A DNA stretch of 64,000 nt, from the NCBI GenBank assembly GCA_018822665.1, contig JAHJJX010000019.1, forward strand, positions 1-64,000, read 5' to 3'. The notes below the pieces were generated by a model. It was not told the origin of the DNA, did no database searches, and was given only the letters and a program-made list of their open reading frames with translations. Positions 1 through 4,663 of this stretch are shown one piece after another. The DNA comes from a bacterium. GTDB lineage: Bacteria; Campylobacterota; Campylobacteria; Campylobacterales; Sulfurimonadaceae. The translations under genes and the position numbers were made by a program. Position 1 is the first letter of the stretch. The number at the start of each line of letters is the position of its first letter.

Positions 1-333
1 CCTTACCATCGTATCGTACTGCGTCGATTTGCAGATCTTAAGCAGCCTTTTTCTCGCCTCTTCGTCAAGCTCCGACGGATGCTTCGCCCATAATGAAAGA
101 ATGTAGTCGTTTTTCAGCGGATCGGTATAGAGGCTTAGCTGCTCTATAAGTGAGGGACTGATGTTAAAGGTCGCTTTTAGCCCCTTGTAAGCGCTCAAAA
201 GCCATGGCATCTCATAGTAGTCTTTAATGGCATGGAGGAAAACCCATGGCATTATCATCACTCCATCACTGCCCCGGTAGTCGGGCTGGTGCATATGCCA
301 GAAAAAGCAGAGATTAAGTGATGGTTTTTTCAT
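1..333 (-). CDS. Glycoside hydrolase family 57 (amylase-type), N-terminal 111 residues; partial
   Basis: The reverse strand encodes the first 111 residues of a protein that continues beyond position 1. After a start at 333 it reads FFWHMHQPDYRG, the N-terminal GH57 signature, followed by PWVFLHAIKDYYEMPW, also typical of that family. GH57 enzymes are cytosolic alpha-amylases, amylopullulanases or branching enzymes of glycogen/alpha-glucan metabolism; the substrate cannot be set from this fragment. The start ATG overlaps the stop of the upstream gene (TAATG), so the two are translationally coupled. Base composition is near 48% GC in the lines I counted, far above the rest of the window. Confidence 0.85.
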   Translation of the reverse strand, partial: MKKPSLNLCFFWHMHQPDYRGSDGVMIMPWVFLHAIKDYYEMPWLLSAYKGLKATFNISPSLIEQLSLYTDPLKNDYILSLWAKHPSELDEEARKRLLKICKSTQYDTMVR

Positions 334-875
334 TACGTATTTGACCACTTCTTTATTTTAGCAGTGTACTCAGCCAAAATAGCTTCGCCTTTTTCGTCGT
401 TTTCAGCCTGAATATAGAGGTTGAGATGATCGTTATACTGGTTAGGAATCATTAAGATCCAATCGTTTTTGTCCAGCCAGATCTTGACACCGTCAAGCGT
501 CGAGGACTCTTTGTCCTTGGCATCTTCAAGGAACATACGCATCATCTTGCCCTTGAGCGACTGGGTGCACGGTGCCTTGGAAGTATGATAATAAAAACTC
601 GGAATCGAATTTATTATATCGGAAAGTTTGACATCGTTGTTGAGCATCATCTCAAGAATTTTCAGGGTCGCATACATCGAGTCGCGGTGTGTCGCAAATT
701 CGGTAAACGCAAAGTTCCCTTCGCCTGTTGCCACAAGATCATATTTTTTCATCTCTTCGGCCTTAAAGTTCGCATACTGCCCGCGTTCGATCTCAAGGTC
801 ATCAAAATAGACGATATCGGCAGCCCAAGTCGGCAGCAAGACGCGTTTTTTGCTTTTCGATGCCTTGGCTTCCAA
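333..875 (-). pseudogene. C-terminal fragment of a mannose-1-phosphate guanylyltransferase/phosphomannomutase (Mpg-type) fusion
   Basis: The 180 residues match only the end of the long (about 830 residue) nucleotidyltransferase-phosphomannomutase fusion family. Visible landmarks are the TGEGNFAF segment, SIPSFYYHTSKAPC followed by KGKMMR, and a final DGVKIWLDKNDW domain that corresponds to the PGM/PMM C-terminal domain. The N-terminal nucleotidyltransferase and most of the mutase core are missing. The only start is a TTG at 875 with no ribosome site, directly preceded by an in-frame TAA, exactly where GC-rich sequence changes to AT-rich. I read it as a 5'-truncated gene left by recombination or an assembly join, although a stand-alone short protein is possible. 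It overlaps the GH57 start by one base. Confidence 0.65.
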
Positions 876-902
876 TTAATATAAAAACAATCTTTATTTT
901 GG

Positions 903-908
903 TATTAT
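903..908 (+). promoter_or_regulatory. Candidate -10 box of rpsA
   Basis: TATTAT lies 33 bases before the rpsA start in an AT-rich leader. Ribosome site AAGAGGA (928-934) sits six bases before the ATG. No clear -35 is visible, which is usual for Campylobacterota sigma-70 promoters. Confidence 0.4.
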
Positions 909-940
909 TACGAAATTTTTATGTAACAAGAGGATAGGTA

Positions 941-2596
941 ATGGCGTTCGATAACGAATCATTTGAAGAAGAAAGTTTTGCAGAGCTGTTTGCTGCTAGT
1001 GAAAAACAGCAAGAAACAAGTCGTATTGTAGAGGGTGAGATTGTTGAAATCCAAGAGGATGAAAACAGAGCATTGGTTGGCGTTGGTGATAAACTAGAAG
1101 GTATTATTAGCTTAGATGAGATTCGCGATGAAAGCGGAAAATTAAAGTTTGGTACTGGCGATAAGATAAGAGTAATGGTAATGGGGCACTATAATGAGCG
1201 TCCTAAAATCTCTTATAAGAAAGTTCTTGAACAACAAAAAACTATAGACTTTATTGATGCAAACAAAGATGACTTTGAAGATGTTATTATTGAAGGTATT
1301 ATTACGAAGAAAAATCGCGGCGGATATGTTGTAGAAGCTGATGATATAGTTTTCTTTATGCCTCGCTCTTTAGCAGCATTTAAAGATACTGATGAAGTGG
1401 TAGGCCGTAAAATAAAAGCTCAAGTTGTTAAAATAGATGAAGCAGAAAACTCAATTGTAGTTTCTCGCCGTAAATTGTTTAATGAAGAGAGAAAGAAAAA
1501 GAAAGAAATTATTGATAAACTAATGCAAGATGATACGATCATTGAAGGTACTATCAAAAAAATCACAAGCTATGGCATGTTCGTAGATGTTGGTGGTGTT
1601 GATGGTTTGGTTCACTATAATGAAATCAGCTACAAAGGTCCCGTAAACCCTTCTAAGCTTTATAAAGACGGAGACGTAGTTACCGTTAAAGCTATATCGT
1701 ATGACAAAGACAAAAGACATCTTTCTCTTTCTATAAAAGCTGTTCAACCAGATCCATGGGCTGAAGTTGAGAGTGAATTGGATGAAGGCGACACAATCAC
1801 CGTAACTGTTTCAAATATTGAAAAGTATGGTGTTTTTGTTGATTTAGGAAATGATATAGAAGGTTTCTTACATATTTCTGAGATTACTTGGGATAAAAAT
1901 GTAAATGATCCAGCTGATTATTTGACAGTGGGTCAAGAAATTGATGTTGAAGTAATTGAGATAAATCCTAAAACTCACAAGCTTCGTGTTTCGTTAAAAC
2001 TTTTATTGCCAAAGCCGTTTGATGAATTTTTCAAAAAACACAATGAAGGCGATATCGTAAAAGGTAACGTAACATCATTAACTGATTTTGGTGCATTCGT
2101 TCGTATAGACGGAGTAGAAGGTCTTTTACATAACCAAGATGTTTCTTGGGACAAAAATGTTAAATGTAAAGATATCTTAAAGCCAGGCGATGAAGTTGAA
2201 GTTAAAATTGCTAAAATCAATCAAGAAGACCAAAAAATCTCTTTAAATCGTAAAACACTTCTTGAAAGCCCGATAGATAAATTTGCAGCAACTCACAAAG
2301 TGAATTCTGTTGTTACTGGAACTATTCGTGATATTAAAGATTTCGGTATTTTTGTATCTTTAGAAGATGGCGTGGATGCTCTTATTCGTGATGAAGATTT
2401 ATCTCCATTGGTAAAAGAAGAGCTTGCAGTCGGCAGTGAAATTGAAGCAGCGATAGCTGTAATCGATACGCGTCGTGACCGTATCCGTCTTTCTGTTAAA
2501 AAATTAGATTATATTAAAAATCAAGCGATGCTAGAAGAGATTAACGATAATGAATCACACTCTCTTGGTGATTTAATAAAAGATCAACTCAAGTAA
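941..2596 (+). CDS. rpsA: 30S ribosomal protein S1
   Basis: This 551-residue protein holds six consecutive S1 (OB-fold) repeats at roughly 34-100, 118-185, 203-270, 288-356, 373-440 and 457-523. The third to sixth carry the recurring pattern of a VxxIxxYGxFVDxG strand, a xGLxHxxE/D turn and a closing basic strand ending in LSxK. S1 binds mRNA leaders and brings them to the 30S subunit. Length matches bacterial S1 of about 550 residues. The ATG at 941 has a good ribosome site. The next gene begins one base after the stop, so S1 heads a small operon with the membrane protein and serA. It carries no copy of the TTCCACATGCC word. Confidence 0.97.
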   Translation: MAFDNESFEEESFAELFAASEKQQETSRIVEGEIVEIQEDENRALVGVGDKLEGIISLDEIRDESGKLKFGTGDKIRVMVMGHYNERPKISYKKVLEQQKTIDFIDANKDDFEDVIIEGIITKKNRGGYVVEADDIVFFMPRSLAAFKDTDEVVGRKIKAQVVKIDEAENSIVVSRRKLFNEERKKKKEIIDKLMQDDTIIEGTIKKITSYGMFVDVGGVDGLVHYNEISYKGPVNPSKLYKDGDVVTVKAISYDKDKRHLSLSIKAVQPDPWAEVESELDEGDTITVTVSNIEKYGVFVDLGNDIEGFLHISEITWDKNVNDPADYLTVGQEIDVEVIEINPKTHKLRVSLKLLLPKPFDEFFKKHNEGDIVKGNVTSLTDFGAFVRIDGVEGLLHNQDVSWDKNVKCKDILKPGDEVEVKIAKINQEDQKISLNRKTLLESPIDKFAATHKVNSVVTGTIRDIKDFGIFVSLEDGVDALIRDEDLSPLVKEELAVGSEIEAAIAVIDTRRDRIRLSVKKLDYIKNQAMLEEINDNESHSLGDLIKDQLK

Positions 2597-2597
2597 A

Positions 2598-3077
2598 ATG
2601 CAAAAGATTTTAAAATGGTTTGCTCCAGTCTTAGCGCTTGGAGTTGCCATTTTTATCGTCTTCTTTTTAATTTCTATAAATCCTTCTGAAGAGCTAGGCA
2701 GTGTTAAGCCTTTAGCTCATGCAAATGAAGCAGTTTTAAAACAACCAAAAAAGATTTGGTTAAATCATTTTTCGCAAACTGAAAGACTTGGATATTTTTA
2801 TCCTGTGAATGAAGTTTACATTAAAGTAGATTTGAATGAACAAGTTTCTAGCAATACAATTTATAGACTATCTGCTTCTCTTTTAGACCCATATCAACTT
2901 TTTTGTTTAAAAGAGGAATTAAAACAACATAAATTGCGATATTATCTCGAAAGAGATAGTAATGGTGTTGAATTGTTAATCTACTCAACAGATATTGAAA
3001 AATTAAATTCTTTAGTGAGAGTATTAAAAAACTATCAAATTTCGGCGAATGTTAAGCCATATAAAGAGGATGTATAA
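2598..3077 (+). CDS. Hypothetical single-pass inner-membrane protein
   Basis: A 159-residue protein with a short basic start (MQKILKWF), one hydrophobic anchor at about residues 9-27 and a periplasmic tail. The last 70 residues, from YRLSASLLDPYQLFCL to the end, look like a small alpha/beta fold of the SPOR or peptide-binding kind, but I cannot assign a family. It lies between rpsA (one base gap) and serA (TAATG, one-base overlap), so it is co-transcribed and translationally coupled to serA. Function unknown. Confidence 0.75.
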   Translation: MQKILKWFAPVLALGVAIFIVFFLISINPSEELGSVKPLAHANEAVLKQPKKIWLNHFSQTERLGYFYPVNEVYIKVDLNEQVSSNTIYRLSASLLDPYQLFCLKEELKQHKLRYYLERDSNGVELLIYSTDIEKLNSLVRVLKNYQISANVKPYKEDV

Positions 3078-4663
3078 TGCAAAAACATACAATAGTAGTT
3101 TGTGATCATATTCATGAAGCCGGATTGGAAATGCTTCGTAATGATGAGAGTATAAATTTTGTTATGGCTGCTGATGTTGATAAAGTATCACTTCTAGATA
3201 TTATTGCTACGGCAGATGTAGCTATCACTAGAAGTTCAACAGACGTAGATGATAAATTTATTGCACACGCAACAAATATGAAAGCAATTGTTCGTGCAGG
3301 TGTCGGTGTGGATAATGTTGATATCGACGGCTGTTCCAAAGAAGGCATAATAGTTATGAATGTACCGACTGCAAATACCATTGCAGCTGTTGAACTTACT
3401 ATGGCGCACATGCTTTCATGTATGAGAATGTTTCCATATTCACATGACCATCTTAAAAACCAGAGAATCTGGAAAAGAGAAAAATGGTATGGACATGAGA
3501 TGAAAGGCAAAAAGCTTGGTGTTATCGGATTTGGCAATATCGGTTCGCGTGTAGCTATTCGTTCAAAAGCCTTTGAAATGGATGTTATTGCTTATGACCC
3601 ATATATCAACGCATCTAAAGTGACAGATCTTGATATGGTTTATACTAAAAATTTTGAAGACATTTTAGCTTGCGATATCATAACAATCCATACTCCTAAA
3701 AATCAAGAAACTCTTAATATGATAAATGAAGCAGAGATAGCAAAGATGAAAGACGGAGTCGTTCTTATCAACTGTGCTAGAGGTGGTTTGTATAATGAAG
3801 AAGCACTTTATAATGGTCTAAAATCCGGAAAAATCCGTTTTGCGGGAATTGATGTATTTAATAAAGAGCCTGCTACAGACAATCCTTTACTTGATTTAGA
3901 CAATATTTGTGTTTCTCCGCATCTTGGTGCCAATACGTTTGAATCTCAGTACAATATAGGGGTGCAGGCTGCTCAACAAGCTATTGAAGCTGCAAAAAGT
4001 ATAGCATTTCCACATGCCATGAATTTACCTATTGATGAAAGTAAAATCCCTTTATTTGTTAAACCATTTTTAGAGATGGGTCAAAAGATAGGTTTTCTTG
4101 CTTCACAAATGAATAAATCTCAACTATTATCGATTAAGGTGAGCGGACAAGGCGAGATTGCCGAGTATGTTGGCAGCTTATCTACTTTCGTTGCTGTAGG
4201 CGCAATGAGCCAAAGCAGCGGAGATACAATTAACTATGTGAATGCAGAGTTTATTGCGCAGGAGAAAGGGATTAAAATAGAGTCAAAGGCTCTGAGTGAT
4301 TCATCTGTATATAAAAATTTGATTACAGTTAAACTTACGACAGCCAAGGGTACTACAAGCATATCTGCTACTATATTTGACGACAATGTATTTCGTATTG
4401 TGGAAATTGACGGTTTTGACATAGAAGTAGCACTTAAAGGCGATATGGTTCTTTTTAAAAATAGCGATGTCCCAGGTGTAATAGGAAGTATCGGTACGAT
4501 TCTTGGTAAAAACAATGTAAACATTGCAGACTTTTCATTAGCAAGAAATAATCAGTCACAAGCATTAGCCGTTATCTTAGTTGATAATGTAGTGAGTGAA
4601 GCTACCTTAAATGAGCTCTCAAAACTTGAAGCTTGTTTGAGTGTAAATTACGCCCGCTTATAG
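3077..4663 (+). CDS. serA: D-3-phosphoglycerate dehydrogenase
   Basis: A 528-residue, three-domain SerA of the long type, catalysing the first step of serine synthesis (3-phosphoglycerate + NAD+ to 3-phosphohydroxypyruvate). Visible are the NAD-binding GFGNIGSRVA motif, then the catalytic triad Arg235 (NCARGGL), Glu264 (FNKEP) and His282 (SPHLGAN). An intervening ASB-type domain spans about 320-450, and a C-terminal ACT domain (VPGVIGSIGTILG) suggests serine feedback. The start overlaps the stop of the upstream membrane protein. One exact copy of the TTCCACATGCC word lies in codons for FPHA at 4008-4018. Confidence 0.97.
   Translation: MQKHTIVVCDHIHEAGLEMLRNDESINFVMAADVDKVSLLDIIATADVAITRSSTDVDDKFIAHATNMKAIVRAGVGVDNVDIDGCSKEGIIVMNVPTANTIAAVELTMAHMLSCMRMFPYSHDHLKNQRIWKREKWYGHEMKGKKLGVIGFGNIGSRVAIRSKAFEMDVIAYDPYINASKVTDLDMVYTKNFEDILACDIITIHTPKNQETLNMINEAEIAKMKDGVVLINCARGGLYNEEALYNGLKSGKIRFAGIDVFNKEPATDNPLLDLDNICVSPHLGANTFESQYNIGVQAAQQAIEAAKSIAFPHAMNLPIDESKIPLFVKPFLEMGQKIGFLASQMNKSQLLSIKVSGQGEIAEYVGSLSTFVAVGAMSQSSGDTINYVNAEFIAQEKGIKIESKALSDSSVYKNLITVKLTTAKGTTSISATIFDDNVFRIVEIDGFDIEVALKGDMVLFKNSDVPGVIGSIGTILGKNNVNIADFSLARNNQSQALAVILVDNVVSEATLNELSKLEACLSVNYARL
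4008..4018 (+). repeat. TTCCACATGCC word in serA
   Basis: Exact copy, read here as Phe-Pro-His-Ala. Confidence 0.85.

Follow-up and report, generated by a model that had tools for sequence, protein, structure and literature searches.

The start of contig C9 in a Campylobacterota draft genome raises the question of whether two unlike stretches of DNA were joined there in a cell or in the making of the sequence. The draft, of probable metagenome origin, holds 2.507 Mb in 44 contigs, and the window analysed here is the stretch of 64,000 bases (G000:C9:1-64000) whose position 1 is the first base of C9. An earlier note on this DNA had described a drop in GC content at about 880, coinciding with the loss of the first 650 or so residues of a Mpg/phosphomannomutase frame, and had suggested that a glycogen/mannose cluster could have arrived there by recombination or that the assembly could be chimeric.

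Two gene fragments on the minus strand occupy the first 875 bases. The outer one, cut by the contig start, encodes the N-terminal 116 residues of a GH57 glycoside hydrolase (1-348; Pfam PF03065, E 7e-7), and the inner one the C-terminal 180 residues of Mpg/phosphomannomutase (333-875; Pfam PF02880, E 1.5e-5). The truncation reported in the earlier note is confirmed, as the piece aligns to the intact 835-aa copy in this genome only from residue 651 on; to be added are the minus strand of the frame and the continuation of the piece into a GH57 gene running off the contig. Behind the junction (873-880) the plus strand carries a conserved rpsA leader (876-940), rpsA for ribosomal protein S1 (941-2596; 551 aa, five S1 domain stretches, PF00575, E 2e-73), a hypothetical gene (2598-3077) and serA (3077-4663), the last two being native. 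Read by eye, a similar hypothetical gene stands 3′ of rpsA in L198, and the hypothetical gene together with serA in L200. A family scan of the five proteins of 1-4663 found no mobility families.

The break can be placed to the codon, at 875|876. DNA homology to Mpg-GH57 extends to 874 against G130 and L046 and stops at 874-875, whereas homology to rpsA leaders begins at about 873-876: query 860-1240 has matches in 127 of the 134 other genus genomes, with alignments mostly starting at 873-876. The letters CAATTAAT, found at window 873-880, open the leaders of L096 and L097 among others, and the intact Mpg gene of L046 diverges from the window past the shared codon. These homology limits and the divergence of L046 together place the join within about three bases, of which 2-3 appear common to both sides when L046 and the rpsA leaders stand in for the true donor. 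One in-frame TAA lies directly behind the join, as had been claimed, and the Mpg and GH57 pieces read as two clean open frames, with no decay, up to the junction. We found no direct or inverted repeats in 700-1100, no promoter or terminator in a scan of 800-960 and no exact match to the junction in viral_contigs. The same junction is absent from the 134 congeners, a set of one genome per species.

Composition changes at the same place. GC content falls from 0.451 in 1-875 to 0.20 in the leader and 0.346 in rpsA, against 0.359 for the whole window; the drop noted earlier is therefore real, with the first part at 0.451 rather than the estimated 0.48 or so. The likeliest single change point within 1-2500 is 873, with a log-likelihood ratio of 14.0 (internal controls: 95th percentile 11.7, maximum 18.7, n=96). 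The GC level of 1-875 is not unique: 2 of 2490 sliding pieces equal or exceed it, and 0.454 over 875 bp is reached near 18.7 and 37.6 kb of the window. The GC change is well placed, yet within what the window shows elsewhere; because the level is matched at two other places and 14.0 is below the control maximum of 18.7, composition alone does not suffice to make the case. Codon use and tetranucleotides set the piece further apart, with a GC3 of 0.56 for the Mpg piece and 0.59 for the GH57 piece against a native mean of 0.326 (sd 0.056, maximum 0.486; 43 window ORFs of 200 aa or more) and a tetranucleotide distance surpassed by 1 of 156 native pieces. The two sides also differ in their closest relatives. 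An ordinary GC swing within one genome was rejected, since gene content, codon use and closest relatives all switch at one place.

The origin of the piece was traced through its relatives. The genome does contain an intact Mpg gene elsewhere, in a complete but different cluster on contig C12 that comprises glucan phosphorylase-like, Mpg, GH57, second GH57-like and galT genes (ORFs read by eye). This cluster is 60-63% identical to the window piece; its Mpg (835 aa) is 60% identical over residues 651-834 and its GH57 60% identical over residues 4-110. From 63 sequences we removed those without either piece and those duplicating another row, which left a tree of 41 rows. A branch with 100/98 support separates the C12 copy from the window piece, which sits at an open fork with Sulfurimonas, Sulfurovum and unplaced Campylobacterota around it. 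The low identity and the separate place in the tree led us to reject the idea that the piece is a decayed duplicate of the C12 cluster.

L046 has both the shortest path to the piece and the highest identity with it (80%) of all rows. Its GC3 of 0.55/0.57 resembles that of the piece, and its intact 835-aa Mpg is directly followed by two GH57-like genes and by further genes read as galT and glgA. Gene order and sequence of the window piece are thus those of the Mpg-GH57 glycogen cluster of Sulfurimonas, Sulfurovum and Sulfuricurvum, but all that the window contains of it is the end of Mpg and the beginning of GH57, adjoining rpsA. The remainder of its GH57 gene is on no readable contig, six contigs shorter than 3 kb being read as N. 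At the DNA level the closest matches in the named set are L048 (77.7%) and L046 (77.1%), and a search of 398 genomes of the order, own included, gave any match in 128, the best being G481 (76%) and G475 (74%), both of another family. Another strain, or a close species living in the same sample, might have had its variation merged at the contig tip, so that the junction would exist in some cells and not in the genome as binned. The probable metagenome origin of the draft would allow for this, as would the spread of the piece's nearest relatives over several Campylobacterota groups, some in its own genus; we regard it as very improbable, given that neither the 134 congeners nor the 397 other genomes of the order hold a DNA match above 76% over most of the piece, and that the best of the named set is 77.7%.

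Second Mpg loci occur naturally among relatives. G044, G060 and G148 each have Mpg in two locations, on separate contigs. In Sulfuricurvum kujiense, from the same family, plasmid pSULKU01 carries a second Mpg-type gene (L214 4903-7440; NC_014754.1:104014-106551), beside which patatin-like, phospholipase A and HD-domain genes are listed and no GH57.

What normally precedes rpsA was read from 29 fetched relatives (L088-L116), 26 of which have readable DNA before the leader. The gene there is ispH in 23 of the 26, as it also is in G006 and G024 outside the 29, and other genes stand there in the remaining 3 (G095, G008 and G076; L097, L104 and L106), where ORFs read by eye are guaB-like, ilvB/ilvN-lpxD-like or ABC-transporter-like. 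In G081, G071 and G113 (L092, L108, L112) the contigs end less than 80 bases upstream of the leader or inside it, and in G081 the two sides of the leader region lie on two contigs, C47 and C6. A literature search on the ispH-rpsA-serA order found nothing of help. The window shares the leader, rpsA, the hypothetical gene and serA with the aroA-ispH-rpsA neighbourhood of the genus and differs in lacking ispH and aroA upstream. Both are on contig C7 of the same genome, with ispH about 2 kb inside the contig start. The DNA between ispH and the C7 tip holds an antitoxin-like scrap (about 1898-1997), followed by an HD-GYP frame of 638 aa that runs off the contig start, and this stretch past ispH has only short matches (up to about 100 bases) in other genus genomes. 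Within C7:1-2041 (L024 1-2041), the scrap downstream of ispH resembles a gene of antitoxin type in G149. We regard a stretch of 24 bp on C32 that nearly matches the leader as an AT-rich coincidence.

The separation of ispH from rpsA bears on a real and recent rearrangement, in which an insertion between the two genes would have left the Mpg-GH57 piece on C9 and HD-GYP with antitoxin-like debris on C7. That the two genes lie on different contigs with unrelated DNA beside each is what such an insertion would produce, and the non-ispH neighbours in 3 of 26 relatives, the plasmid-borne second Mpg gene in the same family and the whole rpsA leader all agree with it. Neither of its edges, however, could be more than about 2 kb from a contig end, the two sides are unlike in composition (45% on C9 vs 29-35% on C7), GH57 is continued on no readable contig and the piece is without decay, so that we hold this event to be possible but doubtful. 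It is still less likely that natural breaks recur immediately upstream of the leader in this genus, and that foreign DNA including a second, more GC-rich glycogen cluster has here split ispH from rpsA, selection sparing the rpsA promoter region. A real junction would illustrate, in a modest way, how gene order can break next to an essential gene that keeps its leader. Of the recombination reading in the earlier note, the origin of the foreign piece in a glycogen cluster is borne out; the incoming side would amount to the 875 bp running off the contig, and rpsA, the hypothetical gene and serA downstream are native.

The state of the assembly offers another explanation. Of the 88 contig tips, 74 were readable, the six contigs shorter than 3 kb being read as N and the far ends of C43 and C44 not included. 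The outermost 35 bases are common to another tip in 23 of the 74, several over exactly 141 bp, and one contig-end overlap is 39 bp. Both lengths fit the MEGAHIT k-mer list, and we infer from them a MEGAHIT-like assembly with k=141. At the starts of C9, C7 and C39, the outermost 35 bases are common to no other readable tip. In a composition screen of the 74 tips C39 was the one clear case besides C9: its start has 63% GC for about 315 bases and then 30%, positions 1 to about 340 encode a C-terminal FKBP piece (PF00254, E 7e-35), and genus matches begin at query 323, the longest at 354. The FKBP-type isomerase piece of C39:1-360 (L153 1-360) is, on these features of its sequence, probably another chimeric tip. 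Strong GC change points occur at other tips too, including the C9 end, the C32 end and the C18 start, none of them a clear case of foreign DNA; the C9 end and the C20 start have a repeat in common, and the C32 end reads by eye like a host alanine-rich gene. One benchmark gives, among its results, 22.15 chimeric contigs per genome with megahit vs 2.63 with SPAdes (PMC11261854).

We therefore consider the junction probably to be an assembly chimera where C9 begins, the reading of the earlier note that the evidence favours, short of proof. The native contig would start at the conserved rpsA leader (about 873-876), and short-read metagenome assembly, or library making, would have extended its tip into the 875-bp Mpg-GH57 piece of another Campylobacterota member of higher GC with a glycogen cluster; the native upstream neighbour would be ispH, as in most of the genus, here placed on C7. 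The join would accordingly have been made by the assembler or the library and not in a cell. This is favoured because the junction is 875 bp from a contig end (by arithmetic, 88 tips in 2.5 Mb would leave about 3.5% of random real junctions less than 1 kb from a tip), because the GC3 of the piece is far outside that of native genes and like that of L046, and because two foreign frames end at the join without decay. It is favoured also because a complete cluster is already in the genome, elsewhere in the tree, while no readable contig carries the remaining GH57, and because the overlaps are MEGAHIT-like, the C39 tip looks alike and the outermost 35 bases of the C9 start recur at none of the other readable tips. 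A chimeric tip needs the fewest coincidences. If the junction is such a chimera, 1-875 should be left out of the genome, since counting it would mimic a second glycogen cluster and a gene transfer that do not exist.

Several observations argue against a chimera. A de Bruijn chimera usually requires a shared k-mer, and only 2-3 bases are visibly common at the junction. The C9 tip resembles the inter-genome contigs of short-read metagenomes in its foreign, compositionally distinct DNA with truncated genes, as does the C39 tip, and is unlike them in that no long shared word is visible at the join with L046 and the rpsA leaders standing in for the donor. The rpsA leader is left whole, as expected under selection on a real rearrangement, and genes other than ispH adjoin it upstream in 3 of the 26 readable relatives. 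The C7 side of the ispH-rpsA break carries other DNA and could mark one boundary of a real island, second Mpg loci are natural (the S. kujiense plasmid; G044, G060, G148) and the GH57 remainder could sit in the six contigs read as N.
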